64,000 nucleotides of DNA from Frigoribacterium sp. PhB24 (GTDB taxonomy: Bacteria; Actinomycetota; Actinomycetes; Actinomycetales; Microbacteriaceae): NCBI RefSeq assembly GCF_003755185.1, contig NZ_RKIC01000009.1, positions 620,001-684,000 of the forward strand, written 5' to 3'. The notes beneath the pieces are model-generated. The model worked only from the letters and a program-made list of their open reading frames with translations. It searched no databases and was not told the origin of the DNA. Shown here one piece after another: positions 24,659-42,106 of this stretch. Each line of letters begins with the position of its first letter. Positions within the stretch are counted from its first letter, which is position 1. The translations under genes and the position numbers were made by a program.

Positions 24659-25675
24659 ATGACCGACCCCCGCCCCGCCGTGTCCTCCCGTCACCCCTTG
24701 ACCGCGTCTGGCAGCGTCGAGCTGGCCGTGCTCGAACGCTCGGGCTGGGACGAGAGCCGTCACGTCGGTGCAGGCGTCGTCGTGGATGCCGACGGACGCG
24801 AGCTGCGTCGCGTCGGGGACGCCGACGCGACGATCTACCCACGCTCGTGCCTCAAACCGCTGCAGGCGCTCACGGTGCTGCGATCGGGAGTCTCGCTCGA
24901 CGGCCCCCAGGCCGTCCTGGCCACGGCGAGCCATGCCGGCACGCCGGCCCACCTCGAGGTGGTCGAGGCACTGCTGGACCGCTCGGGCAGCACCGAGGAC
25001 GACCTGCTCTGCCCGCCGGACTGGCCCGGTGACCGGGCCAGCGCCCGCGAGGCCTCCGCGAAGCGCCGTCTCGCCATGAACTGCTCGGGCAAGCACGCCT
25101 CGTTCCTGCTCGCCTGCGTCGAGAACGGCTGGGACACGTCGAGCTACGTCGCGACCGACCACCCCCTGCAGGCCGCAGTCCGCGAGACGGTCGCCGAACT
25201 CACCGGGGAGACCGTCGACCACGCCGGTGTCGACGGCTGCGGCGCCCCGGTGATCGCGACCACGGTCGTCGGCCTCGCCCGGGCCATCGGCCGCATCACG
25301 GGGTCGGTCCGCGCGACCGGCACGGGACGAGACGACCACGCGGCGCACATCGTCGAGGCCGTCGTCGGCGACGCCTGGGCGATCGACGGCCCCGGTCGCG
25401 CCAACACGGTGACGATCGACGAGCTGGGAGTGCTGGCCAAGCTGGGCGCCGAGGGCGTCATGGTGATGGGCACGACCGACGGCGTCGCGGTGGCCGTGAA
25501 GGTGCTCGACGGGAACGTGAGGGCCGGCACCCTGGTCGCGCTGCGCCTCCTGGTCGACGAGGGCGCCGTCGACGCAGCCGCCGCCGAACGCGTGGTCGAG
25601 CGCACGCTCGAGAAGGTCACCGGCGGTGACGGCCTCGTCGGTCGCATCCGTCTCGGCAACGGGCTCGACCGCTAG
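24659..25675 (+). CDS. Type II-like asparaginase (Asparaginase_II family)
   Basis: 338 residues matching the Asparaginase_II family (the Rhizobium AnsA-like, thermolabile type). Key motifs are YPRSCLKPLQAL, NCSGKHASFL and GVDGCGAPV, which carry the nucleophile and zinc or substrate residues of this fold. It should hydrolyse L-asparagine to aspartate. Plus-strand, isolated gene. ATG 24659 is 7 bases after TACACT. Its TAG stop overlaps the stop of the convergent EccC-like gene within a shared CTAG. Confidence 0.88.
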   Translation: MTDPRPAVSSRHPLTASGSVELAVLERSGWDESRHVGAGVVVDADGRELRRVGDADATIYPRSCLKPLQALTVLRSGVSLDGPQAVLATASHAGTPAHLEVVEALLDRSGSTEDDLLCPPDWPGDRASAREASAKRRLAMNCSGKHASFLLACVENGWDTSSYVATDHPLQAAVRETVAELTGETVDHAGVDGCGAPVIATTVVGLARAIGRITGSVRATGTGRDDHAAHIVEAVVGDAWAIDGPGRANTVTIDELGVLAKLGAEGVMVMGTTDGVAVAVKVLDGNVRAGTLVALRLLVDEGAVDAAAAERVVERTLEKVTGGDGLVGRIRLGNGLDR

Positions 25676-26514
25676 ACGCCACACGGGTCGTCGTCGCGCA
25701 GCGAGACGAACGCGACCCGCAGGCTCTGCCGACACCGACGGCCGTCCTTCAGGGTGACCGTGGCCTCGCCGTCCGGATCGATCACGAGGATCGTGTCGAC
25801 CGGGCGCGGCTCGGCCGCGGCCGCCGTGCCGACAAGCACACAGTCGATGGCCCCGGCAGCCTCGGCCGGCGCTGCCCCCGCGGCCCGCAACTGACGACGG
25901 AGGCCCGACGCCACGGCCTCGGCCACGACGGGCGGGCCCACGACCCGGACGGTCGACGAGAGCGGCACGCACAGCGGAGCCTCGTCGAGGGTGGCCGCCT
26001 CGTCGCGCAGGCGGGCGAGTCGGGCGACGGCCGGATCGCCCGGCCGGAGGTCGTCCTCGGGGCGCCCCTCGAGCACGAGCCCGCTGGAGGCGCGACCCAC
26101 CCCGAGCACCAGCGCCCGGATCGGACGACGCACGGAGTCGGACGCACCGAGCCGGTCGGCCGTCGGGTACCAGTCGGCCAGCTCACGCGACCGCGCCGCC
26201 CGCAGACGCGCGACGGCCTCGTCGATCTCGTCGAGAGACGCCAGGAACCGCGACCGTCGACGACGGGCCGTGACCAGGGCCCCGAGGAGACGGTCCAGTG
26301 CCCAGCCGCCCAGGACGGCGAGACCCGTCACGATCGCGGACCCGAGGACGGCGGGCGCGCTCGCCCAGGGCACGAGGGCGCAGCACGCCGACGCGACGGC
26401 GCCCGTGGAGGTCGCGGCGACCGGGACCGCCGTCGGGTGGGGTCGGACCGGTGCCGGAGGCAACCGGATGCGAGACGGGACGGCCGGGGACGTCGTCGGG
26501 GTCGAGGACTTCAT
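25672..26514 (-). CDS. Membrane protein resembling the N-terminal part of EccC
   Basis: 280 residues. A Pro-rich N-terminus leads to two membrane helices at about 36-50 and 53-72, then a cytoplasmic segment with the charged helix RRRRSRFLASLDEIDEAVAR and a domain ending VRVVGPPVVAEAVASGLRRQL. This order matches the region before the first FtsK-type ATPase domain of type VII secretion EccC proteins. No Walker A, Walker B or FtsK domain follows. It could be an EccC remnant, or a stand-alone adaptor. It is the last gene of the accessory module, after a hairpin. No WXG100 or EccB/D/E gene is in the window. Confidence 0.45.
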   Translation of the reverse strand: MKSSTPTTSPAVPSRIRLPPAPVRPHPTAVPVAATSTGAVASACCALVPWASAPAVLGSAIVTGLAVLGGWALDRLLGALVTARRRRSRFLASLDEIDEAVARLRAARSRELADWYPTADRLGASDSVRRPIRALVLGVGRASSGLVLEGRPEDDLRPGDPAVARLARLRDEAATLDEAPLCVPLSSTVRVVGPPVVAEAVASGLRRQLRAAGAAPAEAAGAIDCVLVGTAAAAEPRPVDTILVIDPDGEATVTLKDGRRCRQSLRVAFVSLRDDDPCGV

Positions 26515-26556
26515 CCCCTCAGTGCAACAGCCCGCCTACTCCGTCCGTCGCGAGGT

Positions 26557-26581
26557 GGGCGGACCTGGGGACGGTCCGCCC
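26557..26581 (-). terminator. Hairpin between the zinc-ribbon/FHA gene and the EccC-like gene
   Basis: A perfect 9-bp stem GGGCGGACC/GGTCCGCCC with a 7-base loop, 28 bases after the FHA stop. It may terminate or attenuate the operon before its last gene. Confidence 0.6.
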
Positions 26582-26609
26582 GGCTCGCCGTGAGGGGAGG
26601 AGTCGTCCG

Positions 26610-28526
26610 TCAGACGACGACGAAGAACTGCTCGCCGATCTCGACGCGGGTACCGCGCGTCACCCTGACCCGGGCGCCCGGATCGGCTCGCCGGGGCGGG
26701 AGGTCCCGTGGGCGCACGACCGTCCCGTTGCCGGACCACCGGTCGCTGACCCACAGGATGCCCGCCTCCTGGCCGAACTCGAGATGCGTCTTGGACACCG
26801 ACTTGCCGGGATCGACGATGCGGACGAGCTGGTCGAAGCGCTCCCCCGGTTGGGGCGTCGGTGCGCGGCCGATGAGACCCGTGCCGTCGACCGTGATGCT
26901 CTCGCCCGTGCTGAACTGCAGCACGTACTCGGTTCCCAGAACGCCACGGCGGACGATGCGGGTCTCGTCGACGTCGTCGTCCGGTAGCTCGACGAGCGGT
27001 CGACGGGGACGCCAGGCCGGGGCCGACGACGATGACGGTGCGGGGGGAACGTCGGCGACGGTCGGCTCGGGCGTCACGGCCGGTCGTTCGGCTCGGAAAC
27101 CCGGCACGTGGTCGATCGGCTCGGGGGCGGGACGCCGTTCCGCGGGCGGCTCGTCGTCGGCCACGCCACGCGAGGGCACGTCGTCGCCGTCCGAGGAGAC
27201 ACGGCCGACGGCGTCGTCGTCGGCACCTGATCCGGCCCGCTCATCGTCGTCGCCGACCGCACGGCGGCGGAGGACGGAGTCGTCGTCCGGTCGCCACTCG
27301 GGTGGCAGCGGGACGACGGGGCCCGTGAACGACAACGCGACCGATTGGACGACCGCGCCGCACTCGCCGCAGAAGATGTCGTCCTCGCCGATGGACGCAC
27401 CACAATGCGTGCACCGTTCGGGGACGGCGGCCGAACCAGGTCGGACGAGCGGTACGGGCTCGACCAGCGGCACCGGTCCGGGTCGACCGGAGTCCACGGG
27501 GGCGGGCGGGGTCTCACCCGGGGCGGGCGGACGGAAGTCGCGGCCGAGGGCGGCGACGGGAGCGGTGTCGCCGTCACGGGGGGCCTCGGCCGCCGGACTC
27601 ACCAGCGCGGGGGGCCTCGTCGAAGCGGCGGGCCCCGCCGAAGCGGCGACCTCGTCGTCGTGATCGTCCACGGCAGGTAGGTCGGCGGCTCCGGTGGAAG
27701 CGTTGTCGGCAGATGACGCCGACGCCACGACACCGTCGTCATCCGCTGCGCGATCGGCACCCGCGGGACGTTCACCCTGGTCGTCGACCGACGGTTCGAT
27801 GCCGACCACGTCGCTCTCGTCGTCTCGACGGTCGTCGGGCCCCCCGGACGTCGAGGGCTCGCCCCCCGCGGCGGCCGGTGACGAGTCGTCCGGGCCGGCG
27901 GGCGTCAGGGACGCGGTCCAGAGCGGGGCCGGCGTCACCCGCGGCCCGTCGTCAGCGTGCTTGGCAGGCGACCGGAGCGGTGTGGGCGGCTCGGCCGCGT
28001 CGGGGGCTGCGGAGCGGGAGGCGCCCCCGTGGACGACAGGGTCCGCGGGGCTGACGCCGTCCACGGTCCCGACGGGGTGAGGGACTCCCGGGGACTCGGC
28101 CCGCGCCTCCTCGGGCGCTGCCGGGAGGACGGCCTCGGGCTCGTCGGACCGGTCGTCGACCGGCCACACCGGAGGCTCGGGTACCGACACGGGCGTCATG
28201 GTTCGGTGCTGCCCGGTAGCGGGCGCGTCGACCTCGGTACCGGATGACCCGACCTCGGCATCGGGCGCCCCGACCTCGGCGCCACCGGTGTCAGGCTGCC
28301 GGTCGCGCACCCACCAGGGTGGCTCGGAGTCCCCTCGGCGGGGATGTGAGGCAGCGCGCGTGGGTGCCTCGGGCAGGTCGGCCGCGGTGACGGCATCGAC
28401 GTGCTCGGCGGCGGCGTCGGCCCGACGGCGGGCGGCGGCGAGGTCTGCGCTCGAGACAGCCCGACCGCACTCGCCGCAGAACATCGCGCCGACGGGCAAG
28501 GGGCTGGCACAGGTGGGGCAGTACAT
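26610..28526 (-). CDS. Double zinc-ribbon protein with C-terminal FHA domain
   Basis: 638 residues in three parts. A zinc ribbon sits at the extreme N-terminus (Cys3, 6, 17, 20) and a second at Cys372, 375, 386, 389, each C-x2-C-x10-C-x2-C. Between and after them is a long acidic, Pro/Ala/Ser-rich disordered region. The C-terminal FHA domain (about 530-638) has LIGRAP, SVSKTHLEF and WSGNGTVV, the phosphothreonine-binding motifs. Just before it is DDDVDETRIVRR, where Thr522 is a possible kinase target. Its ATG shares one base with the upstream stop (TGATG). It likely reads the phosphorylation state of the module. Confidence 0.85.
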   Translation of the reverse strand: MYCPTCASPLPVGAMFCGECGRAVSSADLAAARRRADAAAEHVDAVTAADLPEAPTRAASHPRRGDSEPPWWVRDRQPDTGGAEVGAPDAEVGSSGTEVDAPATGQHRTMTPVSVPEPPVWPVDDRSDEPEAVLPAAPEEARAESPGVPHPVGTVDGVSPADPVVHGGASRSAAPDAAEPPTPLRSPAKHADDGPRVTPAPLWTASLTPAGPDDSSPAAAGGEPSTSGGPDDRRDDESDVVGIEPSVDDQGERPAGADRAADDDGVVASASSADNASTGAADLPAVDDHDDEVAASAGPAASTRPPALVSPAAEAPRDGDTAPVAALGRDFRPPAPGETPPAPVDSGRPGPVPLVEPVPLVRPGSAAVPERCTHCGASIGEDDIFCGECGAVVQSVALSFTGPVVPLPPEWRPDDDSVLRRRAVGDDDERAGSGADDDAVGRVSSDGDDVPSRGVADDEPPAERRPAPEPIDHVPGFRAERPAVTPEPTVADVPPAPSSSSAPAWRPRRPLVELPDDDVDETRIVRRGVLGTEYVLQFSTGESITVDGTGLIGRAPTPQPGERFDQLVRIVDPGKSVSKTHLEFGQEAGILWVSDRWSGNGTVVRPRDLPPRRADPGARVRVTRGTRVEIGEQFFVVV

Positions 28527-30901
28527 CAGTCGTTCCTCTGTCGCTCGGGAGGGGTGCGCCCATGGTAACCACGCAATGATCGGAGCGAGACCGCAGCGGC
28601 GAACCGCTGCCGCCTCGTGAGCCCCACGGCCAGGGCGCGTCGCATCTCGGCGACGGCGGTCCAGACGCGATCGGCGTCGGATTCGGCAGGCGGGTTCGGC
28701 GAGAACACCGCACGGTCCGCGACTCGGGCCAACACCGCAGGACGCGAGCCACCCACGACGGCGGCGACCTCGCTTCGCGTCGCGGCCGGCGGGGTGCGGA
28801 TGCCGTGGTCGACCACGGCGTCCTGGAACTCGTGCCAGCCGCCGCTGATGCGGTCCGAGGGGGTCGTGGCCGTCCGGCGCCGGCGCCGCCTCCTGGCCTT
28901 GAGGGCGACGACGGTCACGAACGGGGTCGCGACCACGCCGGCGACGAGGGCGCTCCAGCCGACGATCCGCACGACCAGCAGGACGACGGCCAGCCAGGCC
29001 GGAGGGGTCTCGGGGTCGTCCTGTTCGGACTGCGGCGGGGTCTGGTCGTCTCGCACCTGAGGGTCCTGGGGCGGGGGTTGGACGACCGACTCGGGACGGG
29101 AGATCTGCGTGGGATCTTGCACCTGGTCCTCGGGGATCGGCCGTTCGGCGGGGTTCGGGTCGAGCGCCACCCAGCCGTACTGGGCGGTGTCGACCTCGAT
29201 CCACGCCGTCACGCTCGAACCCGTGACCTCGACGCTGCCTCCGCCGGTCTCGGGCGCGAAGCCCATGACCACCCTCGCGGGGAACCCCAGCCGGTCGGCC
29301 ATCAGGGCGGCCGCCGTGGCGTACTGCTCGGCGTCGCCGATCATGACGGGGTCGGTGAAGAGTTGCGCGAGGCGGTCGGCTCCGTGGCCGGATCGGCTGA
29401 CCGGCTCGTCGGCACCGACCCCGTGGCTCACGTAGCCGTCCTCGCGCAGGGCGGTGAGCGCGGCCTGGAGGCGCGCCCCCGGCGCCTGGACGCCGACGAC
29501 GTCCTCCTCGAGCGCGGAGGACAGCTCGTCGGGCACGTCGCGAGGGGTCGGCACCGTGGCCGTCCCCGGCGTGAGCGCGACGAGCTCGTCGTCGCGGGGC
29601 TGTCGGGGCTCGACCGCGTCCAGCCGGTAGGAGTCTCCCTGGCGCAGGCCGCCGAGGACGGCCGCGGTGCCCGTCAGGTCGTTGTAGAAGAACGCATCCC
29701 GCCGGGCGTCCGCCGAGGCGCCGTCGAACGCGACGGACTCGAGTCGGCCTACGGTGGGCAGCCACAGGTCGGCGTAGGCCCCCACCGTGACATCGACGGT
29801 GGTCGGCTCTCCGTCGACCCCGGACTGGTCGACGGTGGACGGCACCCGCGTGAAGAACCCGGAGGCGCTGTCGGCCTCGCCGCTGCCGACGCTGTAGACG
29901 ACGCCGTCGTAGGTGTCGAGCGTGGCGACGCGAAGTCGCTGTCCGTCGCGCAACCCCGTGACGGTGAGCAGCGTCTGGTCGACGGTCGGCGCTTGTTCGT
30001 AGGCTCGGAAGCCGCTGAGGGGGCTGACGTGGTCGCGCGGGTCGAAGGGTTGTTCGACGACCGTGCGCGCCACCGTCCGCGAGGTGGCCGGCGGGGCCGC
30101 CCCGACGGCGATCGTCCCGGCCGTTCCGGCGACGGCCAGCGTGAGGACCGTGCCGACGACGGCCCGGACGACCACCGGACGGTGCCCCGCCGACGTCCTG
30201 GAGGGGCGGGCGGCGAGGGCGTCGAGGGCGACCCGACGTCGACGGAGGCGCCACCACACCACCCAGGCGACCACCGTCACCAGGAGGGCCAGTCCGACCG
30301 CGCGGGGCCACCAGGCCTCGGCCGGGCCGAGCACGATCGCCGCGATCCAGACGACGACCGGGACGACGACGGCGAGTTCACCATGGCGCCGACTGCGGAG
30401 CGCGACGGACAGACCGACGACCGTGCCGACGAGGACGAGCGCGAAGACAGGCACCAGCAGGGCCTCGTAGCTGCCCACGGGCAGGGCGATCGTGACCAGC
30501 TGTTTCCAGCCGAGGGCCGTCGCCGAGACCAACGTCCACAATCCCCTGCCCGTGGGCAGCACCCCGGCGAGGGCCTGGGACGGCACGGCCAGCGGCACGC
30601 CGAGGACGAGGTAGGCCGCGAGCGTGGCGACGAACACCCACACGCTCGACAGCCGGAGGACGGCCGCACCGAGCGCGACGACCACGCCGACGGCGAAGGC
30701 GACGGCGACGAGCAGGACGAAGGCGCCGCTCTCGTACACCGGCCAGAAAGCAGAGGTCGCGGTGCCGAGCGACGTGGCGAAGAGTGCGACGACGGAGGTG
30801 ACGAACGGCGCCCGTAGTCGTGCCGGACGGGCGCGAGTCCTGGCACGAGGAGGAGGCGTCACCTGCCCTGCGGGACTCCGGGACTCGTCGCCGACGCTCA
30901 T
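28526..30901 (-). CDS. Membrane transglutaminase-like protein lacking catalytic Cys and His
   Basis: 791 residues: about seven membrane helices (33-266), an extracellular region with a transglutaminase-like core at about 485-590, a final helix at about 636-665 and a basic cytoplasmic tail. The topology matches the TgpA/DUF3488 group. At the active site, where relatives have GxCEHYA, this protein has GDAEQYA: Ala524 replaces the nucleophile. Where they have DAHAW it has SVTAW: Thr565 replaces the His. Asp581 of VALDPNPAE remains. The domain is therefore probably a peptide-binding pseudoenzyme. ATG 30901 overlaps the DUF58 stop as ATGA. Confidence 0.85.
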   Translation of the reverse strand: MSVGDESRSPAGQVTPPPRARTRARPARLRAPFVTSVVALFATSLGTATSAFWPVYESGAFVLLVAVAFAVGVVVALGAAVLRLSSVWVFVATLAAYLVLGVPLAVPSQALAGVLPTGRGLWTLVSATALGWKQLVTIALPVGSYEALLVPVFALVLVGTVVGLSVALRSRRHGELAVVVPVVVWIAAIVLGPAEAWWPRAVGLALLVTVVAWVVWWRLRRRRVALDALAARPSRTSAGHRPVVVRAVVGTVLTLAVAGTAGTIAVGAAPPATSRTVARTVVEQPFDPRDHVSPLSGFRAYEQAPTVDQTLLTVTGLRDGQRLRVATLDTYDGVVYSVGSGEADSASGFFTRVPSTVDQSGVDGEPTTVDVTVGAYADLWLPTVGRLESVAFDGASADARRDAFFYNDLTGTAAVLGGLRQGDSYRLDAVEPRQPRDDELVALTPGTATVPTPRDVPDELSSALEEDVVGVQAPGARLQAALTALREDGYVSHGVGADEPVSRSGHGADRLAQLFTDPVMIGDAEQYATAAALMADRLGFPARVVMGFAPETGGGSVEVTGSSVTAWIEVDTAQYGWVALDPNPAERPIPEDQVQDPTQISRPESVVQPPPQDPQVRDDQTPPQSEQDDPETPPAWLAVVLLVVRIVGWSALVAGVVATPFVTVVALKARRRRRRRTATTPSDRISGGWHEFQDAVVDHGIRTPPAATRSEVAAVVGGSRPAVLARVADRAVFSPNPPAESDADRVWTAVAEMRRALAVGLTRRQRFAAAVSLRSLRGYHGRTPPERQRND

Positions 30902-32361
30902 GCGCCGGCCGTCCGCGCGAGCGACTTCTGGAGGTCTTCGAGGTATCCGATGGTCAGCACGGTGAGGTCGGCGATGCGCCTCATGCCGGGAACCGTCTCG
31001 GCATCGCACACGATCGCGACCGCTTCGACCCCGAGCGGGAACTGCATGGCCGCCGCGCGCATCTCGGTCACGGTCGTCGTGGAACCGACGACGAGGAAGG
31101 CCACCGAGATCCCGACGACCTGATCGCCGGCCACCCGTGCGACGTCGGTGATGGCCAGTGCCGACTCGGCCGTGCTCACGACCGCGAGTTCGTCGAGCAA
31201 CCGGTTGCGCGTGAGCGTGCTCAGCGAGCGGATCTCGAGGTGCTTGCGCTTGGCGAACTCGGGGGTGGTCTCACCGACGACGACGCTGACCTCACGTGCG
31301 TCCCGGATCGCCCGGGCCCCGAGCGACCCCGCGACGCTGACGGCGAGCTCGAACTCGTCCTCGTTCGCGAAGTCCCCGGCGGCCAGGCTCAGGGCGATCA
31401 CGAGGTGGCTGCGGCGGCTCTCCTCGAACTGCCGCACCATGTAGGTGCCGGTCTTGGCGGTCGACTTCCAGTGGATGTTCCGTCGTTCGTCGCCGGGCTG
31501 GTACTCGCGGAGGGCGTGGAACGAGATGTCGCTGGGCGAGAGGTCGCGCGTCGGGTTGCCCTCGAGGTCGCGGATGAGTCCCGTGCTCGTGCTCGGGATC
31601 CCGATGGTGCGGGGGTGCACGAACACCTCGGTGACTCCGGTCCACTCGATCTCGCGACGGGCGAGGCCGATCGGATCGCCGCGGACGGTGCTGACCGGAC
31701 CCACGGCGACGACGCCGCGTCGTGTGGTGGGCAGATCGAACGACTCGGTGACCTCGTCACCCGATCGCAGGCTCGGCAGGTCGATCTCGGCGAGGCCCGG
31801 CCCGACCGGGACCTCGACCGACACGCCGAGGATGCGGCGACTGCTGGCGTTGCGCACCCGCACGGTGCCGGAGGCGGGAGCACCGACCGCGACCCGTTCG
31901 TGGGGGATCTCGAGGGTGATGCGGACGGCGTTCCGCCCGATGAGGGCCAGCGTCGCGACGACGAGCAGCACGATCGCGGCGAAGCCGACCACCACGAACT
32001 CGGTCCAACCGAGCAGGTAGCCGGCGAGCAGTGCCAGCGGGGCAGCGACGAGCATCGACCAGCCGAAGGGCGTGACCACCGAGGAGGCGCTGGTGAAGGC
32101 CCGACGGATGGCGCGGCGGGCCCCCCGGGTCGCCCTGACCAGCAGGACGAGCAGGTCGGCCCCGATGCCGGTGCGGTCGCCGACGATCCGCGTGCGGGCG
32201 TTGGTCAGACCCTGCGTTCCCGTCGAGAACGAGGAGTCGAAGCGCTGGTCGACGCCACGGGCGCCTCCCCGCGGTCGTGTGCGACCGGCACGGGAGCCCT
32301 CCGCGGTCGTCGCCGACGCGGGTCTCGCGGCCCGGTCGGTGACTCGGGGACGCTCGCTCAC
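30898..32361 (-). CDS. DUF58 domain membrane protein
   Basis: 487 residues: a disordered, Arg-rich N-terminus, two membrane helices at about 98-140, an Ig-like segment (about 148-220) and the DUF58 core with FHALREYQPGDERRNIHWKS. The following VWA-like part has VIALSLAAG instead of DxSxS, so no metal site is evident. It should be the direct partner of the MoxR ATPase, whose stop overlaps its ATG (ATGA). Compared with the DUF58 at 13680-14567 it is membrane-anchored and larger. The arrangement MoxR-DUF58-transglutaminase is common and conserved. Confidence 0.9.
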   Translation of the reverse strand: MSERPRVTDRAARPASATTAEGSRAGRTRPRGGARGVDQRFDSSFSTGTQGLTNARTRIVGDRTGIGADLLVLLVRATRGARRAIRRAFTSASSVVTPFGWSMLVAAPLALLAGYLLGWTEFVVVGFAAIVLLVVATLALIGRNAVRITLEIPHERVAVGAPASGTVRVRNASSRRILGVSVEVPVGPGLAEIDLPSLRSGDEVTESFDLPTTRRGVVAVGPVSTVRGDPIGLARREIEWTGVTEVFVHPRTIGIPSTSTGLIRDLEGNPTRDLSPSDISFHALREYQPGDERRNIHWKSTAKTGTYMVRQFEESRRSHLVIALSLAAGDFANEDEFELAVSVAGSLGARAIRDAREVSVVVGETTPEFAKRKHLEIRSLSTLTRNRLLDELAVVSTAESALAITDVARVAGDQVVGISVAFLVVGSTTTVTEMRAAAMQFPLGVEAVAIVCDAETVPGMRRIADLTVLTIGYLEDLQKSLARTAGA

Positions 32362-33362: not shown

Positions 33363-36300
33363 TCAGCCGCAGTTGACTTGCGCGTAACCGCTGTCGGTCT
33401 TTCCGTCGACCGTCCCTCTGATGCGGACCTGTGTGGCCGTCGGCTCGACCCGCGAGGACGTCGTGTACGCGCCGCTGTCGTTCCCGGACTGCCAGTTGTC
33501 GAGCAGGATCGGCGAGACGTTGAACTCGACCGTCGCCGAGAAGTCGAGGCTACCGTTCGACGGCCGGTTCACGACGAGGGGTTCGCCGGGGACGCACGAG
33601 ACGATGGTCGGTCGCACGGTCACCGGTGTCGATGCGTAGCGATCGGACGCGGAGCCGCAGAACGTCTCCGAGGCGTCTCGGCAGCCTCGGACGTAGACCT
33701 CGAGTTCGGTGCCGTAGCCACCCGACGAGATGAACCCGTCGGCTGCGACGTCTTGCCAACCCGTCTGCCCGTTCTGCGACCACTCGTAGCGGACCGCTGT
33801 TCCTGTCGCCACCTCGGCCGCGGAGACCTTGACGTCGAAACGTCCTCCGCCGTTCTCACTGGCCGTCACCGTCGCACGAGCAGCACCCGGAGCCTTGAGC
33901 GCCGTCGTTCGACCCGAGCCGACCGAACAGAAGGTGCCGTTGTCCGCCTTGACGACGTACAGGTAGGTGACCCCGTCCTCAGCGGACGAGTCCATCGCTC
34001 CCCCACCGACGAGGGGAACGGCGTCGCCCACCGTGTCGCACGACACGGGCCCGTCCGAGTTCGCGAGGCGGACCACCCTGTACGTCGGGGCCGTTCCACC
34101 GTTCGCGGTCGATGGCGTCCAGGTGATCTGCACGCCACCGCTCACCGGAGAGGCCACCACCTGCGGAGCTCCGGGGCTTCCCACGGGGACCACCCTCGTC
34201 AGGGTCGCGCGAGCCCATGCCGCGTCGCTGTCGACGTCGGCGTCGTTCTTCGCGTAGACGTTGACCGTGTAGTTCTGGTTCGGCACGAGGCCCGTGATGA
34301 CGCTCTGTTGCGCTCCTCGGCGAACGGTCTGCGATCCGGCCGTGGGCCCGGACCATTCGACGACGTACGACTGGATCGCTGATCCTGGACGAGGATCCGC
34401 TGCGTCGGTCCAGCTGATCCGGGTGTCGCCTTGGCCGGATGCCACCGCGGTCGCGCTCAGACCCGTCGGTGTGGGAGGCACGTAGTCCGCGCTGTAGGCG
34501 GGGCTGGACGCCGACGACGCGGAGTCCCCGATGGCGTTGGAGGCGACCACGGTGAAGGAGAATCGTTGACCAGCGGGCAGGTCGGTCAGGGTGCAGACCG
34601 TGACGAGTCCACACGACTTCGAGTACGAACCGCCCGCCGATCCGGTGCCCGTCAGACGGTAGCCCGTCAGCGGCGAGTTGTTGGCCGCGGGGGCCGTGTA
34701 GCTGAGGGTGAGCTGACCCCCCTTGAACGTGCCCGACCGGACGGGCGCGTTGGGCGCGGTGGGAACGTCCTGAACGCTGATCGTGACGGTGCCCCAGACG
34801 TAGCGGTCGGGGTCGTTCGTGACGTCGGCCACCTGGTATTGGAGGTTCGTGTCGCCCGGGGCGGCCGAGGCGGCGACCGAGACGGCGAGACTGCGGTTGT
34901 CGCCGCTGGGCGTGATGGAGACACCGGCCGGGACGGACGACCCGTTCAGCCCCCGGATCGCCACCACCCTCAGCCCCTGGCCGGGGAACGGGTTCGTCGC
35001 CTGGTCGTTCTGCAACACGTCGACCGTCGTCGAGGCACCCCGCTTGACGACGGCACGGTCGACCGCTGGTTGCGCCAGGGGGCGGGTCGATCCGACCACC
35101 GACAGGGTGACGTTCCCGCTCCGGCCGGCGTTGAGTGCGTCGCTGACGGCGACGGGCAGCGACCTGCTCGTCCCCTTGGCCGTTCCGGCGTCGGCCGAGA
35201 CGGTCAGCTTCGACCCCGACAGGTCGTAGCCGAAGCCGGCCGTACCGCCCTGCTCGACGGAAAAGCGCAGTTCGTCCACGTCGTCCGGGTAGGGATACGT
35301 GGTGAGCCGAGCGAGATCGAGCGTTCGCGACTGGCCCGGTTCGAGGTCGATCGAGGTGCCATTGAACACGGGAGGTTGGTTCTCCCTCGACGTCACCGTG
35401 ATCGGCAGCACGAGCGAGGCCGTCCGCCCGTCCGGGTCGTCGGCCGACCGGCCGTCGGTCACCTGGAACGAGATCGACGCCGTGCCCGAGAACAGGTCGG
35501 CCGACGTGAAGCGAAGGGTCGTGTCGTCGACGACGAGGTCGTCACCGTTCGAGTTCGTCGCACGGACCGTTCCGGGGTCGGTCAGGCGCACGCCGTTGGT
35601 GCCGGCCGAGATCACGTAGCGGTCGAGGTCGATCGTGACGGCCTTCTCGCTCTCGACGGTGATCGGACGGACCGTCCGGTCGATCTGCGGGAGGGCGTCG
35701 TCGAAACCGGGCACGACGATGAACGCGTAGGCGCGGATGCCCGGGTCGTCCTTCCGCGAGACGGAGAAGGGAATGATCTGGCTCGAATCGGTGATCCGGA
35801 CGGTGACCCGTGAGTTCGGCGTCACCTCGGCGGTTGAACCGAACCCCGGCGCCAGCCCCAGGTCGAGTCGCGATGTGCTGCCGTCCGAGAAGAAGACGTT
35901 CGCGAGCGGGTTGACCGTCACGGTCTGCCGACCGGCGATGTCGCTGAGTCCGAGCACCGTGTCGTCCGCGAGAGGGTAGTTCAGTGGTGCTTCCGGATCG
36001 ACCGTCACGGTGACGAAGGTCGAACTCTGGCCGCCTCGCTCGTTCGACACGGTGTAGACCAGGCCGTACGTGCCGGGAGCCTCGGGGGGTGTCACCGACA
36101 CCAGGGTCCCCGACACGACCTTGGCGACGATGTCCTCGCCGTTGGCCTCCACCGCGTCGACCGATAATGCGCCCCCGTCGGGGTCGGAGTCGTTGTCGAG
36201 CACGCGGACCGTGATGGACCCGCCCGGTCGCATCGTCACCGCGTCCGCGACGGCGATCGGGTTGCGCGACCCGTCGGCACGGGTCGAGATGCCCACGCGG

Positions 36301-39167
36301 ACCGTCCCGGTCGCCCGGGCACCCAACCCGTCGACGACCGTGTAGGTGAAGGTGTCGGTGCCCGCCGAGCTGGCGTTCGCCTGGTACTCGACGTAGTCGG
36401 TGCCGACGGTCGACACACTGCCCTTCTCGGGGTTCGTGCCCACCCCGAGCAACTGCACCGAGTCGCCGTCGGGATCGATCCCGTCGAGGGGGACGCCGAT
36501 GCGCACGGTCTCGCCGGCGACCACGCGAGCCGTCACCGCCTGGGGCGCAGGGGCCGCGTTGCTGCCGGCGTCGACCTCGCGGACCGCGATGGCGACCTGG
36601 GCCGACGCCCGTTGCCCGTCCGGACCCTCGACGGTGTAGGTCGCCGTCACGTTGCCCGGGGTCGCCGGCGCGAGGTACCGCAGACGGTTGCCCGACGCGA
36701 ACAGCAGCCCGCTGCCGGTCGGGACGTCGCTCTCGAGCCGCGGGACCAGCGTCAGCTCGTCTCCGTCGGGCTGCTCGTCGTTCGAGAGGACGTCGATGTC
36801 GATCGAGTCCCCCACGCGGACGGTCACCTGGTCGTCGGTCGCGATCGGGGGCTGGGTGATCGACCGGCGTGGGATCTCGACCACGGTCACCGTCCCCGTG
36901 GCCGAGGCGAGGCCGTTGCTGACCGTGTAGCCGAAGGTGACCGGCCCGGCGTCGAGCGGAGCCGCGAGCGTGATCCGGGCGTAACGCTGGTCGAGCGTCT
37001 CGACCCTGACCCCGGACGAGGCGGGCACGGCGTCGGTCGCCGTGAGCATGAGGACGTTGTTGGCCGGGTCGCGATCGGTCGCGACGACGTCCAGCGTCTG
37101 CGTCCCCAGCGTCTCGACGAAGATCGTCTTGGGTGTCGTGATCGGGGGCGTACCCGCGTCGGGAGGTGACTGCACGTCGACCCGGACGGTCCCGGTCGCC
37201 GTCTGGTCGCCGTCCGTCACGGTGTACTCGAGGAGGTGGGTCCCGGGCGCGTCGCTGAGGAATCGGAAGGTCCCCTGCTCGTAGTTCGGGGTGACGGTCA
37301 CGTCGGCCTTCGCCGGAACGCTGTTCAGCTTGATCGTGCCCGTGCCGCCTCGGGCGTAGGTCAGCGGTCGCACGGTCAACTGCTGGCCGGCGTAGGCCTG
37401 CTGCGAGAACGGAAGGGCTTCGAGAGGCACCTGGCCCGCGCCCGACACGCCGATCGCGAGCGAGCCACGCCCTTCGTCGCGACCGTCGGAGACCGTCAGC
37501 GGGACGTCGACGGTCGTGTCGCCGGCACCGGCGTCCTGATAGACGACGTCACCCGACGGCTTGTACGACACGCCCGCCGACCCACCCGCCGACGTCAGGT
37601 AGAAGGCGTCGCCGTCCGGGTCGATCCAGTCGCCGAGCACCGACGTGGTCACGCGCCCCGACGACGACACCGATGCGGTCGTCTTCCGGACCTGCTGAGG
37701 CGGCGAGTTCTCGGTCGGCTGACGAACGGTCACGGTGACCGTGGAGCTCGCCCGGCCGCCCCGGCCGTCGGAGATCGTGTAGTCGAGGGTGAGCGTTCCT
37801 GACGCCGTGTCGGTGAGCGTGAGCAACACCTGCTGACGATCGTTGACGAGGTCCACCCGACCGACGGATTCGTCCGGGGTGGACACCTCGTCCACCACGA
37901 GCGGGTCGCCGTTCGGGTCGTAGTCGTTGAGCAGGACGGGCAGGGTGCTCGCCCGACCCGGGCGCGCACCGAACGCGTCCTCGACGGCGACCGGTGGCTT
38001 CTGGTCGGGATCGAGCTCGGGCGGCTGCTCGTCGTCGTTCTCCTGCTGGTCTTCCTGTTCGCGGTCCTCCTGGAACAGGTCGGACCAGTTGTCGATCAGT
38101 TGGCCGGAACGCTGGACCGCCCAGGATCGTCCGGTCGCCGGATCGTTGAGCACGACCCGCCGCGCGTTGACGTCGAAGACGAGATCCGCGCCTCCGGGCA
38201 TGTCGTCCAGGGCGAGGACCCCCCCGCGGGCGGATGCGCAGTCGCTCCACGCCGAACCACCCGCCCAGGCGGCGTAGCGGCACTCGCCGACGACCACGGG
38301 TCGCGCGGGCTCGCCCTCTCGCTCGCCGACGACCTCCGTCACCCGGGAGCCGTCGGACGACACCGACAGGAGGCCCGTGGCCGTGGCGACCAAGACGTCG
38401 TCTCCTGCGTCGGACGCGGTCTGCAGGGCCATGCCGCCCGAGACCCGGTCGGACAGGTCGACCCGACGCCCGTCGACGACCAGGGCCCCCGCGGCGGTGT
38501 CGAGCACGGCCCAGTGGCTGCCCACCGAGGCGACCTGGTAACCCGTTGACGACGACGACGGCAGGTCGTGCGTCTCGGTGACGTCCGGTGACACCGTGCC
38601 GTCGAAGATCGATACCTGACCTGTGGCGGTCGAGTAGGCGGCCACGGTGCCGTCGGGCGTGACGCTGGTGACCAGCCCTTTGCCGAGGCTGAGGTCGGGG
38701 TCGACCTCGTTGCTGAAGGACGGCAGGTCGGAGAGCGGTCGGGACCAGACCTCGCCCGTGCCCTGCGACACGACGAGGGCACGGTCGCCGGCGAGGGTGA
38801 CCTCGGGCGACTCCGGCGGCAGCGGGACGCTCTCGGCGACCTCGGCCGTGGCGGTGTCGACGACGCCGACCGTGGCGTTGCTGCGGTCGACGAGCAGGAC
38901 GTCCTGCCCTCGCTGCACGACCGAGAGGTCGTTGCCGGTGCTGCGGACGGCGGAGTTGAGCTGCAGCACGTCGGTGTTCGCCCGGCCGATCGCGGCCCGT
39001 TCGCCGTTCGCCACCCACACGGTTCCGTCGGACAGGTCGACCCGTTGGGCCTCGTAGCCGGTGCTGGCCACCGCGACCGTCGTCACGAGCGTGGCCACCA
39101 CGACCACTCCGATGCCGGTGGCCACGGCGGACCGACGACGGGAAGCCCAGTCGAGCAACCGCGCCAT
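33363..39167 (-). CDS. Giant membrane-anchored Ig-like/FnIII repeat protein
   Basis: 1934 residues. A basic N-terminus and helix at about 13-35 anchor it with the bulk outside. Residues about 38-360 resemble a beta-propeller of short VWVANGER- and VVDTATAE-like blades with a Cys296/Cys310 pair. An acidic linker (366-390) follows. From about 395 to 1470 come about eleven Ig/cadherin-like repeats, several with DPDGDxxxL or VLxNDxDPxGDxL, typical of calcium-binding Big_9-type domains. Three FnIII modules occupy about 1471-1765, then a Cys-containing tail. No LPXTG or C-terminal helix is present. The start overlaps the kinase stop as TGATG. Likely a long surface adhesin or scaffold. Confidence 0.9.
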   Translation of the reverse strand: MARLLDWASRRRSAVATGIGVVVVATLVTTVAVASTGYEAQRVDLSDGTVWVANGERAAIGRANTDVLQLNSAVRSTGNDLSVVQRGQDVLLVDRSNATVGVVDTATAEVAESVPLPPESPEVTLAGDRALVVSQGTGEVWSRPLSDLPSFSNEVDPDLSLGKGLVTSVTPDGTVAAYSTATGQVSIFDGTVSPDVTETHDLPSSSSTGYQVASVGSHWAVLDTAAGALVVDGRRVDLSDRVSGGMALQTASDAGDDVLVATATGLLSVSSDGSRVTEVVGEREGEPARPVVVGECRYAAWAGGSAWSDCASARGGVLALDDMPGGADLVFDVNARRVVLNDPATGRSWAVQRSGQLIDNWSDLFQEDREQEDQQENDDEQPPELDPDQKPPVAVEDAFGARPGRASTLPVLLNDYDPNGDPLVVDEVSTPDESVGRVDLVNDRQQVLLTLTDTASGTLTLDYTISDGRGGRASSTVTVTVRQPTENSPPQQVRKTTASVSSSGRVTTSVLGDWIDPDGDAFYLTSAGGSAGVSYKPSGDVVYQDAGAGDTTVDVPLTVSDGRDEGRGSLAIGVSGAGQVPLEALPFSQQAYAGQQLTVRPLTYARGGTGTIKLNSVPAKADVTVTPNYEQGTFRFLSDAPGTHLLEYTVTDGDQTATGTVRVDVQSPPDAGTPPITTPKTIFVETLGTQTLDVVATDRDPANNVLMLTATDAVPASSGVRVETLDQRYARITLAAPLDAGPVTFGYTVSNGLASATGTVTVVEIPRRSITQPPIATDDQVTVRVGDSIDIDVLSNDEQPDGDELTLVPRLESDVPTGSGLLFASGNRLRYLAPATPGNVTATYTVEGPDGQRASAQVAIAVREVDAGSNAAPAPQAVTARVVAGETVRIGVPLDGIDPDGDSVQLLGVGTNPEKGSVSTVGTDYVEYQANASSAGTDTFTYTVVDGLGARATGTVRVGISTRADGSRNPIAVADAVTMRPGGSITVRVLDNDSDPDGGALSVDAVEANGEDIVAKVVSGTLVSVTPPEAPGTYGLVYTVSNERGGQSSTFVTVTVDPEAPLNYPLADDTVLGLSDIAGRQTVTVNPLANVFFSDGSTSRLDLGLAPGFGSTAEVTPNSRVTVRITDSSQIIPFSVSRKDDPGIRAYAFIVVPGFDDALPQIDRTVRPITVESEKAVTIDLDRYVISAGTNGVRLTDPGTVRATNSNGDDLVVDDTTLRFTSADLFSGTASISFQVTDGRSADDPDGRTASLVLPITVTSRENQPPVFNGTSIDLEPGQSRTLDLARLTTYPYPDDVDELRFSVEQGGTAGFGYDLSGSKLTVSADAGTAKGTSRSLPVAVSDALNAGRSGNVTLSVVGSTRPLAQPAVDRAVVKRGASTTVDVLQNDQATNPFPGQGLRVVAIRGLNGSSVPAGVSITPSGDNRSLAVSVAASAAPGDTNLQYQVADVTNDPDRYVWGTVTISVQDVPTAPNAPVRSGTFKGGQLTLSYTAPAANNSPLTGYRLTGTGSAGGSYSKSCGLVTVCTLTDLPAGQRFSFTVVASNAIGDSASSASSPAYSADYVPPTPTGLSATAVASGQGDTRISWTDAADPRPGSAIQSYVVEWSGPTAGSQTVRRGAQQSVITGLVPNQNYTVNVYAKNDADVDSDAAWARATLTRVVPVGSPGAPQVVASPVSGGVQITWTPSTANGGTAPTYRVVRLANSDGPVSCDTVGDAVPLVGGGAMDSSAEDGVTYLYVVKADNGTFCSVGSGRTTALKAPGAARATVTASENGGGRFDVKVSAAEVATGTAVRYEWSQNGQTGWQDVAADGFISSGGYGTELEVYVRGCRDASETFCGSASDRYASTPVTVRPTIVSCVPGEPLVVNRPSNGSLDFSATVEFNVSPILLDNWQSGNDSGAYTTSSRVEPTATQVRIRGTVDGKTDSGYAQVNCG

Positions 39168-40588
39168 CAGCCCTGACCCGCCGTCGCGCAGTTCTCGTTG
39201 CTCTCGGGGCCGGTCGAACCACCGCGACTCACGGCGACGACGATGCAGACCTCGTCGCCCGGATCGGCCGGGGTGGCGACGAAACGGTCGGCGGATTGCT
39301 GGCTGGTCTGACCTCCGGTCGAGATGACGTACGTGTCACCTGCCCGGAGACCCGGGTCGCTCCAGGTGAAGACCACCGACGCCCCGTCGCTCGACGACGC
39401 GACGTCGGCCACACGGGGAATCTCGGTCGAGGTCGAACGGACGAGCACGAGCGTCGCCGCGGCCGCGAGACCGATGCCCACGACGGATGCGGCCACCAGG
39501 GCCCACGTCAGGACGAGCGCCGATCGACGCCGTGCGGGGCGCGTGCCGGTGCTGCGAGGCACCGCTCGGCTCTGTTGCAGAGAACCTGCCTGCTGCGCCA
39601 TCACCTGGGCCTCGGTGGCCCGACGCCGACGGCGACGCCGGGAGGCCTGCACGGGGGTGACTCCTCGCACACGCGTCTTGTCCTCGAGGTCGGCGACGGT
39701 CGCGAGGGCCCAGTCGTCGACGGCCACCTCGATGGGCGTCTGCGCGACGCCGATCTCGCTCTCGACCTGCTGGAGCTCGCGCACGAACTCGAGGACGCTC
39801 GCCTGACGGTTCTCGGGGCGCCGCGACATGGACCGCGCGAGCAGCCGCTCGAGCGTCGGGGGGACGTCAGTCCGCCCGGTGGGCACGAGCTTGGCCTTGT
39901 CGATGCGGCCGATGAGGTCGCTCGCTCCGTTCTTGTCACCGCCGAGGACCTCGAAGGGGCTCCGGCCGGCGAGCAGCGAGTACACCGTCGCGCCGAGGGA
40001 CCACACCTCGCTTTCGATGGTGCCGTTCGTCTCGTCGAGCAGCACCTCGGGGGCCGACCACGGAATCGACATGCCGACGACTTCTTGCGGCTCGCTCTCG
40101 CCGAGCGATGCGGCGATGCCGAAGTCGGACAACACGGGATGGCCGTACGCCGTCATGAGGATGTTCGAGGGTTTGAGGTCACGGTGGAGCACGCCCTGCC
40201 GGTGGGCCGTCTCGACCGCGCTGCCGATCTTGACGCCGATGCGCAGCACGTCGGCGACGGGGATGCGGTCGCGCCGGTACCGCTCGCTCAGCGACGACGA
40301 ACAGAGTTCCATCACCAGGTAGGGCCGACCGTCGGCCGAGACGCTGGCCTGGAACACCGTGAGGATCGACGGGTGGGCGCTGAGCTGGGCCATGAGGTTC
40401 GCCTCGGCCTGGAACATCTGCCTGACCTGGTCGTTCACGACCTCGCTGAGCATGACCTTCACCGCGACCTGTCGCCGTGGCATGTTCTGCTCGTAGAGGA
40501 AGACGTCCGCGAAGCCGCCCGACCCCAGCACGCGGACGTGCGAGAAGCCCGGCAGCACGGGTGGCGCCGAAGGCAGTCGTCGAGCCAC
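39167..40588 (-). CDS. Membrane Ser/Thr protein kinase with FnIII-like ectodomain
   Basis: 473 residues. Kinase domain about 15-275: Gly loop GSGGFADVF, Lys44, catalytic HRDLKPSN (Asp137), DFG at 155 and APE at 179-181, so it should be active. A juxtamembrane segment contains EDKTRVRG (Thr305) and a poly-Arg stretch. One helix at 357-383 leads to a short extracellular fibronectin-like domain with two cysteines, not PASTA repeats. GTG 40588 has GAGGAGG upstream. The ectodomain type matches the FnIII modules of the giant protein encoded directly downstream, so the two may interact. Confidence 0.92.
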   Translation of the reverse strand: MARRLPSAPPVLPGFSHVRVLGSGGFADVFLYEQNMPRRQVAVKVMLSEVVNDQVRQMFQAEANLMAQLSAHPSILTVFQASVSADGRPYLVMELCSSSLSERYRRDRIPVADVLRIGVKIGSAVETAHRQGVLHRDLKPSNILMTAYGHPVLSDFGIAASLGESEPQEVVGMSIPWSAPEVLLDETNGTIESEVWSLGATVYSLLAGRSPFEVLGGDKNGASDLIGRIDKAKLVPTGRTDVPPTLERLLARSMSRRPENRQASVLEFVRELQQVESEIGVAQTPIEVAVDDWALATVADLEDKTRVRGVTPVQASRRRRRRRATEAQVMAQQAGSLQQSRAVPRSTGTRPARRRSALVLTWALVAASVVGIGLAAAATLVLVRSTSTEIPRVADVASSSDGASVVFTWSDPGLRAGDTYVISTGGQTSQQSADRFVATPADPGDEVCIVVAVSRGGSTGPESNENCATAGQG

Positions 40589-40657: not shown

Positions 40658-40663
40658 ATTCTA
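40658..40663 (-). promoter_or_regulatory. Candidate -10 box for the kinase operon
   Basis: Reads TAGAAT on the minus strand, about 70 bases before the kinase GTG. It lies in a 175-base gap after a hairpin. No clear -35 is visible. Confidence 0.35.
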
Positions 40664-40720
40664 CGTGGGGGCCACCGACGCCCGAGAGGCCGGTCGGTCC
40701 CTCTGTGGACAGCCCCGGTC

Positions 40721-40735
40721 CCCCCATTTCGGGGG
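40721..40735 (-). terminator. Short GC hairpin after the PP2C gene
   Basis: CCCCC and GGGGG around a 5-base AT-rich loop, 29 bases after the phosphatase stop. It suggests that FHA-PP2C forms a transcription unit separate from the kinase operon. Confidence 0.4.
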
Positions 40736-40763
40736 TCGAGACCTCGTGGGGTGCGTCTCGCGT

Positions 40764-41561
40764 CTAGTCCGCGTCCGGTGCCCCGGCACCCCGGACGTCC
40801 ACGACGACGGCCGTCACGTTGTCGCGCCCGCCCGCTTCGACGGCGGCGTCGACGAGGGCCGTCGCCGCCGCCTCGGCACCGACGACACCGCCCATCAGGT
40901 CGGCGATGCGGTCCGCCGAGAGCTCTTTGGTCAGACCGTCCGAGCAGACGAGGAGGCGCAGGCCGGGTCGGGCGGGGACCCTCCAGTAGTCGGGCCGCGG
41001 GTCGACGTCGAACCCGACCGCCCGGGTGATGACGTTGCTGTCGGGGTGCTTCTCGGCGTCGTCCGCGTGCAGGAGCCCGGCGTCGACCATCTCCTGGACG
41101 ACGGAGTGGTCGACGGTCACCTGGCGCAGACGTCCGGCCTCGAACATGTACACGCGCGAGTCGCCCACGTTGAAGACCGTGAAGTCGACCTCGGCGCCTT
41201 CGGCCTCACGAGAGAGGAACGCCCCGGTCGCCGTCGTGCCGACCCCGAGCTCGGTGTCGGCCGCGGCCACGGCGATGTCCTCGGTGGCGACGCGAAGGGC
41301 CGTCTCGACGTCGTCCGTCGTGGCGAAGGGGCGGGAGGCGATCTCACTCATGCGCCGCACGACCGCGTCGCTGGCGACGTCGCCGGCGCTGTGTCCGCCC
41401 ATGCCGTCGGCGACCACGAAGAGCGGCGCCTCGGCGAGGTAGCTGTCCTCGTTGTGGGCTCGGCGACGACCGACGTCGGTCACCCCCGCCCAGTCGAAGG
41501 TGAGCCCCGGGCCGTCGAGGCCGAGGGCGTGGGCGGTCGTGGGGCGTCCGAGCTCTGTCAC
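40764..41561 (-). CDS. PP2C-family Ser/Thr protein phosphatase
   Basis: 265 residues with all PP2C metal-site motifs: GRRRAHNEDSYL, VADGMGGHSAG, NVGDSRVYMF, CSDGLTKEL and GGRDNVTAVVVD. No membrane helix is present, so it is cytoplasmic, unlike the membrane-bound PstP of mycobacteria. It should reverse the kinase's phosphorylation. Its ATG overlaps the FHA stop as ATGA. It is followed by a hairpin and then the kinase gene. Confidence 0.95.
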   Translation of the reverse strand: MTELGRPTTAHALGLDGPGLTFDWAGVTDVGRRRAHNEDSYLAEAPLFVVADGMGGHSAGDVASDAVVRRMSEIASRPFATTDDVETALRVATEDIAVAAADTELGVGTTATGAFLSREAEGAEVDFTVFNVGDSRVYMFEAGRLRQVTVDHSVVQEMVDAGLLHADDAEKHPDSNVITRAVGFDVDPRPDYWRVPARPGLRLLVCSDGLTKELSADRIADLMGGVVGAEAAATALVDAAVEAGGRDNVTAVVVDVRGAGAPDAD

Positions 41562-42106
41562 AGGAGGGGTTCTTTCGTCGGGATGATGCGCTGGGGAGGC
41601 AGGATCTCGAGAAGGTTCCCGTCACCTACGTCCACTATCGTGCCTGCGCGCGCGACGAGCGACTCGCCTTGCCGGAGAATCACGGGAACGCGTCCCGGCT
41701 CGATCACCCGCGTCCCGTTCGTCGAACGCAGGTCGGTCACGACGACGATGTCTCCTTGCTGGCGGACGTCGACGTGGGCCCCTGACACCTCGTGCCGGGG
41801 CGACGGCACGGTCACCAGCCGGGGAACGGGTCCGGACGCGACCCGCGGCCCGGCCGGCCGTCGCCCCACCACGACGGGTGCGTCGAGGAGGAGGTCCTGC
41901 CCGGCCACCCTCACCCCGTGGAGGCGCGGTGCAGGTCGACCGGGCCCGCTCGGCTCCCGGCTGGTCGGCCCGACCTCGTGCCGCGACGTCCGGAGGACCG
42001 TGTCGTCCGTGTCGGCACCACCCGATGAGCGGGCGGGACGGCGGACGACGGTGTCGTCGATCCCGTGGAGTCGGTGCCACGGATCCTGTGACTGTTCGGA
42101 GGGCAT
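41558..42106 (-). CDS. FHA-domain protein with N-terminal Thr motifs
   Basis: 182 residues. The disordered N-terminal part carries GIDDTVVRRP (Thr19) and DTDDTVLRT (Thr36), two similar acidic-Thr-hydrophobic sites. The C-terminal FHA domain (about 75-170) has VVGRRPAG, SPRHEVSGAHV and DLRSTNGTRV, the phosphothreonine-binding residues. This layout resembles GarA/OdhI switches, in which a phosphorylated N-terminal Thr binds the protein's own FHA domain. That parallel is inferred. ATG 42106 has GAGAGGAAC upstream; it is divergent from ogt across 193 bases. Confidence 0.9.
   Translation of the reverse strand: MPSEQSQDPWHRLHGIDDTVVRRPARSSGGADTDDTVLRTSRHEVGPTSREPSGPGRPAPRLHGVRVAGQDLLLDAPVVVGRRPAGPRVASGPVPRLVTVPSPRHEVSGAHVDVRQQGDIVVVTDLRSTNGTRVIEPGRVPVILRQGESLVARAGTIVDVGDGNLLEILPPQRIIPTKEPLL

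Follow-up and report, generated by a model that had tools for sequence, protein, structure and literature searches.

Here we describe a nine-gene block on the minus strand (25672..42106) of a window of 64,000 nucleotides from Frigoribacterium sp. PhB24, a bacterium of leaves and soil (contig NZ_RKIC01000009.1), which at the level of gene content and order is an operon of the PFNA type, the kind published for Bifidobacterium. The block belongs to a known kind, is wider in range than the published PFNA picture and differs from it. We consider the whole to be best explained by a phospho-regulated membrane machine that would fold or display the 1934-residue giant surface protein encoded in the block, a reading of its sequences to which we give a probability of about 0.5. 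New here are the apparent pseudoenzyme nature of the transglutaminase-like (TG) protein, the distribution of a Thr motif, the likely origin of an EccC-like stub and the probable propeller of the giant; new relative to the published PFNA operon is its range beyond bifidobacteria.

The PFNA operon is given in passages of PMC8430577 as pkb2, fn3, aaa-atp, duf58 and tgm, to which some species add prpC, a hypothetical gene and fha; the genes are co-transcribed in B. longum GT15. These five core gene types recur in the window in that order on one strand, with a membrane kinase and its PP2C and FHA partners. The giants are also alike, both about 2000 residues long, with a membrane helix and with their FN3 domains close to the C-terminal end: in the window, 1934 residues with a transmembrane (TM) helix at 15-33 and the best fn3 match at 1566-1643, and in B. 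longum, following passages of PMC10688814, 1994 residues with domains at 1494-1671. In contrast to PFNA, the window block begins with FHA and PP2C genes, adds a zinc-ribbon/FHA gene and the EccC-like stub, and encodes a giant without any WSxxS motif. Because no named Bifidobacterium locus was among the matches listed, we infer homology to the named Bifidobacterium genes from order, size and domains. The same part of PMC10688814 has PFNA "found only in bifidobacteria", and we found no published description of a PFNA-type operon in Micrococcales in a search with most subscription papers outside its scope.

One family of the order, labelled f4, has the gene order kinase-giant-MoxR-DUF58-TG, and its locus L105 encodes a giant with two WSxxS motifs at 1589 and 1685, 96 residues apart, the spacing found in the B. 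longum fragment, where a passage of PMC12607495 places Trp78 and Trp174 of the two motifs. The motif spacing of L105 and the gene order fit f4 being bifidobacteria, an assignment limited by two or more WSxxS motifs occurring in only one of the six f4 giants. This cytokine-receptor motif is itself not universal in bifidobacteria, whose species differ in it or lack the second domain (PMC8430577, in part). An XFP gene was dropped as a bifidobacterial marker, being positive in 20 of 22 genomes. In L105, giant and MoxR share one 2194-residue stop-to-stop frame (9088-15672), by a lost stop, a true fusion or a sequence error.

The features of the block, in transcription order, are as follows (window positions; start positions of ORFs, open reading frames, are predicted).

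41558..42106, minus strand: FHA protein, 182 aa, disordered N-terminal tail and C-terminal FHA core (Pfam FHA 22.3 bits, cut-off 20.7)
42038-42058 and 41990-42007, minus strand: two Thr motifs in the N-terminal tail of the FHA protein (motif scan)
40764..41561, minus strand: PP2C-type Ser/Thr phosphatase, 265 aa (Pfam PP2C_2 45.2 bits; NCBIfam Stp1 197.8 bits, below the cut-off of 230)
39167..40588, minus strand: membrane Ser/Thr kinase, 473 aa (Pfam Pkinase 143.6 bits; one TM helix at 365-383, TM scan)
39665-39682, minus strand: juxtamembrane Thr305 motif of the kinase (motif scan)
33363..39167, minus strand: giant surface protein, 1934 aa (Pfam Big_9 217.8 bits, cadherin-like, fn3 62.7 bits; TM 15-33)
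37998..39167, minus strand: giant residues 1-390, N-terminal membrane anchor and probable YVTN-type beta-propeller (profile against PDB)
34728..37997, minus strand: giant residues 391-1480, Ig-like (Big_9/cadherin-like) array (Pfam), with the highest conservation and including GIDPDGDSVQLL
33366..34727, minus strand: giant residues 1481-1934, FN3 domains and distal C-terminal region (Pfam fn3), with the lowest conservation
32358..33329, minus strand: MoxR AAA+ ATPase, 323 aa (Pfam AAA_3 207.9 bits)
30898..32361, minus strand: DUF58 membrane protein, 487 aa (Pfam DUF58 45.1 bits, cut-off 23.4)
28526..30901, minus strand: TgpA-like polytopic membrane protein with an apparent pseudo-transglutaminase domain, 791 aa (Pfam TgpA_N 56.4 and Transglut_core 44.4 bits)
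29330-29332, 29207-29209 and 29159-29161, minus strand: TG-like core sites Ala524, Thr565 and the kept Asp581 (column check, 6g49 alignment)
26610..28526, minus strand: zinc-ribbon/FHA protein, 638 aa, with two zinc ribbons, a long linker and a C-terminal FHA (Pfam Zn_Ribbon_1 42.3 bits in two stretches, FHA 22.3 bits)
26946-26969, minus strand: Thr522 motif in the linker of the zinc-ribbon/FHA protein (motif scan)
25672..26514, minus strand: EccC-like stub, 280 aa, a membrane region and N-terminal part without FtsK/SpoIIIE ATPase domains

ORF calling confirms both the nine genes and the five stop/start overlaps that an earlier reading of the letters alone (the sequence-only reading) had reported here. 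The overlaps measure 4 nt at FHA/PP2C, MoxR/DUF58 and DUF58/TG and 1 nt at kinase/giant and TG/zinc-ribbon FHA, and gaps of 175, 33 and 95 nt lie at PP2C/kinase, giant/MoxR and zinc-ribbon FHA/stub. A consensus promoter scan found no consensus promoters, and the overlaps fit one polycistronic transcript. The Pfam scan agrees with the assigned identities of eight of the nine proteins, and the remaining label, that of the EccC-like stub, has no Pfam match of its own and holds through its full-length relatives. Other labels needed amendment: the Ig/FnIII description of the giant is borne out by Big_9, cadherin and fn3 matches but had omitted the membrane helix and the probable propeller; the FnIII ectodomain of the kinase does look FN3/Ig-like, yet Pfam fn3 matches only 4 of 39 orthologues (best E 0.01; the Ig-like Kre9_KNH matches 15); and the transglutaminase-like label is right as to TgpA_N and Transglut_core matches, but the catalytic Cys and His are absent. 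A YaaA gene and an F-ATPase set flank the block at one end, FKBP and asparaginase genes at the other; beyond the stub and the asparaginase genes, two FKBP-type prolyl isomerase genes are adjacent to each other (22413-24650, minus strand). A separate minus-strand cluster at 11191-15613 holds a second MoxR (14573-15613), a DUF58 in 13680-15335 and VWA ORFs at 12222-13220 and 11191-12636.

We assessed how constantly these genes occur together in two sets of loci and in whole genomes. A search with one conserved domain of the giant matched at least 594 named stretches, 492 of which encoded a relative; the best 80 were kept, all of them therefore found through the giant, and 62 of those fetched, longer than 20 kb, are treated as full-length. 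The nearest among those listed is Frigoribacterium sp. Leaf8 (98% identity over 125 residues of one giant domain), and the set includes Frigoribacterium, Curtobacterium, Cryobacterium, Herbiconiux, Leifsonia, Clavibacter, Naasia, Agromyces and Salinibacterium as well as a groundwater Micrococcales metagenome-assembled genome (MAG) and several MAGs whose titles go no lower than family. Each of the 62 full-length loci has the kinase, giant, MoxR, DUF58 and TG-like genes, with FHA in 59, PP2C in 58 and zinc-ribbon FHA in 57, and sorting by stop codon gives the window's gene order in all 62, so that the order is not due to chance. Among 81 loci of the order (the window and 80 picked by the giant, many of which end at 20 kb), MoxR was present in 74, DUF58 and TG in 78 each, kinase in 68, PP2C in 55 and FHA in 53, the last three lying either before the giant or after the TG gene, depending on lineage. 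Eight loci (L043, L044, L048, L051, L060, L071, L090 and L091) have two giant genes in tandem with one MoxR/DUF58/TG set, and in L189 and L193 the kinase, giant and TG frames are in pieces, possibly by sequencing error.

Since the named loci had been found through the giant, we made a two-sided cross-tabulation over 198 genomes of the order. With its N-terminal 390 residues as the query, the giant was matched in 102 genomes, two of these matches (G135, G163) being weak and partial with E >1e-4. Giant and operon-type DUF58 were both found in 97 genomes and neither in 92, with the giant alone in five and DUF58 alone in four; the E value of 1e-45 that separates operon-type from other DUF58 was chosen after the values had been seen, and the name lists were typed over from the search listings. 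By profile, all four DUF58-only genomes show a piece of the giant, in G024 a short one only, within a 1684-residue ORF near DUF58, and the five giant-only genomes consist of two with DUF58 at weaker E (G003, 1e-33; G112, 8e-39), the two weak giants and one fragment (G039). The outcome is opposite to the rare co-occurrence that the sequence-only reading had set as its refuting condition, and the claim that the genes belong together is thereby upheld. In a phylum sample of 396 genomes the giant N-terminus matched 13 as a single sequence and 20 as a profile, including four genomes from outside the class (G291, G302, G328, G401) with strong profile matches in ORFs of more than 2100 residues; the two loci fetched from these four, L160 and L161, carry the operon.

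The operon "transglutaminase", termed a transglutaminase or a presumed cysteine protease in passages of the PFNA publications, appears to be a pseudoenzyme without the catalytic Cys. Its core profile aligns with TgpA of Pseudomonas aeruginosa (PDB 6g49; E 4e-8), likewise a membrane protein with a transglutaminase core, in which Cys and His are catalytic. At the places of the TgpA segments GFCAHYA and AHAW the window has GDAEQYA and TAW, such that Ala524 and Thr565 stand in place of Cys and His. Across 162 operon proteins, 159 of which hold a residue at the site, the Cys column contains Ala 45, Asp 42, Gln 35, Gly 16, Glu 12, Ser 8 and Thr 1, with three gaps and no Cys, while His is found in its column in 20 and Asp in its column in 109. 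Some loci are one contig met twice (e.g. L144 and L240), and the count was therefore redone on distinct core segments, where Cys is found in 0 and His in 20 of 157. The site is Ser in six of six f4 proteins. The surrounding GDxEQ is kept in 68 of 69 named-locus proteins, indicating that the fold is under constraint though the nucleophile is gone. In 30 control cores from the same order both Cys and HAW (His) are present throughout, controls that lean to canonical enzymes because they are the best-scoring of the Pfam matches in 59 genomes.

The giant begins with a signal-anchor-like membrane helix (residues 15-33, TM scan) followed by what is probably a YVTN-type propeller. Its N-terminal profile matches the surface layer protein 1l0q (E 0.00078), and one stretch of the profile matches five stretches of 1l0q, the fold of which is a YVTN propeller. 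Relative to 72 orthologues, identity is 45–71% over residues 361-1500, 34–54% over 1-360 and 20–38% beyond 1500. In the two wider of three pairs, variation is higher in the distal giant and in the kinase ectodomain than elsewhere. A tip that varies fastest is not a uniform feature, as in the closest pair (L175) the propeller dN (0.084) is slightly above that of the distal part (0.078). The ratio of nonsynonymous to synonymous change (dN/dS) was below 0.6 for every gene and segment in three pairs, and positive selection was rejected for whole genes and segments of these pairs; passages of PMC6803598 report it at the level of single codons.

The EccC-like stub is, on the comparisons made here, best described as the remnant of a full-length gene of sister genera. 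As a query it matched 28 of 150 family genomes, aligning with the N-terminal part of FtsK/EccC-like ORFs of 905-1069 aa in sister genera. Eighteen matching genomes were extended; 15 have a 905-1069-residue ORF with at least one P-loop-like motif (ten with two). In 12 of these loci the ORF follows immediately on the operon genes, and in L142, L146 and L158 the giant is outside the fetched stretch. Within the window's genus the stub is matched in 16 of 16 genomes, that of the window included, always without the ATPase part (alignments of 202-282 residues); 15 of the 16 have no internal stop and one (L164) has a TGA. As the stub occurs throughout the genus, the ATPase part was probably lost before the genus radiated and the remainder kept. 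Values of dN/dS were 0.35-0.49 for six close copies and 0.28 for one near-identical pair, and the stub is therefore under some constraint, not strong.

The signalling proteins are predicted to be competent. Catalytic motifs are intact in 76-77 of 78 kinase and 69-70 of 70 PP2C orthologues from the named loci, and the key FHA residues GR, S.H and NGT are found in 71 of 71 orthologues. The kinase ectodomain is short and Ig/FN3-like with two Cys, invariant in the alignment at Cys60 and Cys79; its only match in a PDB search was Zoocin A (E 0.0057), and a shared origin with the FN3 domains of the giant found no support in profile comparison (hhalign probability 5%). We defined a Thr motif, [DE]-x(0,1)-T-x-[VIL]-x(0,2)-[RK], and counted it in the 80 named loci against shuffles. 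It is carried by 60 of 71 FHA proteins (133 sites, 17.8 in shuffles), 60 of 78 kinases (63 sites, 22.6) and 33 of 63 zinc-ribbon FHA proteins (36 sites, 12.6), and falls below the shuffles in PP2C (6, 17.1), MoxR (5, 22.8), DUF58 (7, 38.8), TG (25, 39.4) and the giant (55, 103.7). Its placement is similarly restricted, to the FHA N-terminal tail (127 of 129), the kinase juxtamembrane region (59 of 61) and the zinc-ribbon FHA linker before the FHA domain (29 of 36). Within Microbacteriaceae the motif thus gives fair support, at the level of sequence, to a phospho-circuit; outside that family the kinase motif remains 2.0-fold over shuffles.

From these observations a mechanism can be proposed in which the giant would be held in the membrane by its N-terminal helix, its propeller lying beside the membrane and an Ig-like stalk ending in a variable tip of FN3 domains. 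MoxR, whose Walker motifs are present in 74 of 74 orthologues, would be the ATPase of a membrane chaperone complex with DUF58, and the TgpA-like protein without catalytic Cys could serve as a binding or docking part of this complex, not as a cross-linking enzyme. Kinase and PP2C would determine whether the Thr motifs of the kinase and of both FHA proteins are phosphorylated; binding of the phosphorylated motifs by FHA domains may then switch recruitment of the machinery for folding, anchoring or displaying the giant. We infer the formation of the complex, the FHA switch and the giant as client. The sequence-only reading had interpreted the block along related lines and is partly supported: that the phospho-state of the kinase is read by two FHA proteins accords with the intact kinase, PP2C and FHA motifs and with the Thr motif common to the kinase juxtamembrane segment and both FHA proteins in Microbacteriaceae, a motif that is not clear in the FHA proteins of other families. 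In that reading the kinase would also sense outside signals, and the circuit would govern how the giant is assembled or displayed. It had also called the function unknown, whereas the core is of a published cluster type, the PFNA operon, whose function is argued over. Phosphorylation of the operon's MoxR by Pkb2, reported for B. longum in passages of PMC8430577, is a further link that this reading had not named.

Several points weigh against such a circuit. In some of the order's 81 loci one or more of the kinase, PP2C and FHA genes were not seen, and many genomes outside the window's group have them downstream of the giant. The Thr motif was first seen in the window and tested afterwards, and because the sequences are related the shuffles overstate its significance. 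Conserved segments give similar ratios (6.1 for PP2C with a central S, 2.7 for MoxR with a central P), and as a conserved segment alone can yield such values, only the figure for the FHA tail (7.3) stands out. An earlier, stricter pattern showed no excess in the order-wide set (FHA 4 against 7.9, kinase 4 against 9.4), the FHA motif has none outside Microbacteriaceae (10 against 10.2), and in the giant-picked set of the window's own family PP2C also reaches 2.2-fold. Since MoxR, DUF58, TG and giant show no motif excess, the step from FHA to the machine is without sequence support.

A housekeeping envelope system, in which the giant would be a wall scaffold or tension sensor and the MoxR set would act in wall growth without dedicated display, draws on an analogy to the moxR1/rip operon of mycobacteria, where MoxR adjoins DUF58 and whose moxR operon is likened to PFNA in a passage of PMC12067865, the same passage naming neither a kinase nor a giant FN3 protein. 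This explanation is consistent with the purifying selection on all genes and with the operon being present almost without exception in some families, but the giant is not listed in 96 of the 198 order genomes, and so is not essential in general, and the distal giant and kinase ectodomain are the more variable parts in the two wider pairs; we regard it as unlikely, though deserving of serious consideration. A host-immune sensing operon, with the giant binding cytokines through FN3 WS-x-x-S motifs and the kinase reporting the host signal, has in its favour that core gene content and order are the same as in PFNA and that TNF-alpha is reported, in passages of PMC8430577, PMC10688814 and PMC12607495, to be bound by a fragment of the FN3 protein from B. 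longum. The operon is nonetheless carried by Frigoribacterium, Curtobacterium, Cryobacterium, Herbiconiux, Clavibacter, Salinibacterium, the groundwater Micrococcales MAG and others. As a group, these are not gut bacteria. WSxxS is absent from the window giant and, within the last 650 residues, is found in 58 of 95 giants outside f4 and five of six inside, and so is not specific to f4; a host-immune sensing role for the window operon is very improbable.

A type VII secretion link, by which the EccC-like gene would export a partner or the giant itself, is about as hard to credit. The FtsK/SpoIIIE-type ATPase of the sister genera resembles EccC, and full-length ORFs adjoin the operon in 12 of the 15 loci that have one, matching EccC/EssC models (E 1e-54 to 1e-74) and EccC/EssC PDB chains; the scores are, however, under the NCBIfam cut-offs, the window's genus has the ATPase-less stub only, and the stub query matched just 28 of 150 family genomes. 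WXG100 genes, present in all 16 genomes searched, are none of them nearer than ~339 kb on the same contig, and a WXG100 link was rejected. The poorest fit is a conflict system of the MoxR-vWA-beta-propeller kind (Kaur et al. 2020), in which the giant would be the propeller part; for this we see almost no room. Both have MoxR, a vWA-type partner and, in the giant probably, a propeller, and the window MoxR is weakly similar to the bpMoxR profile (32.8 bits, cut-off 27), but the same protein scores 207.9 bits with AAA_3 and an unrelated MoxR of the same window scores higher on bpMoxR (41.8 bits). Moreover, the propeller is fused to the vWA protein in the ternary systems, as far as passages of that paper describe them, whereas here it lies on the surface protein and the DUF58 protein has no propeller match in Pfam.

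The block bears on how PFNA is understood. Published discussion treats the operon as a bifidobacterial means of immune sensing and its FN3 protein as a lead for drugs. Should the operon be widespread in environmental actinobacteria, with an inactive TG, a host-immune role could not have been its first function, and models that assume an active TGM would fail. The block also offers a testable case in which a MoxR/DUF58 pair has a plausible client, the giant, encoded beside it, at a time when the role of the DUF58 partner of MoxR is described as not clarified in a passage of PMC12067865. We suggest tentatively, at somewhat less than even odds, that PFNA-type operons may be an old, mostly environmental actinobacterial machine in which phospho-switched MoxR/DUF58, with a dead TG as a substrate-binding or signalling domain, would fold and display a 200-kDa propeller-Ig-FN3 fibre, and that immune binding in bifidobacteria may be a late use of its variable tip.

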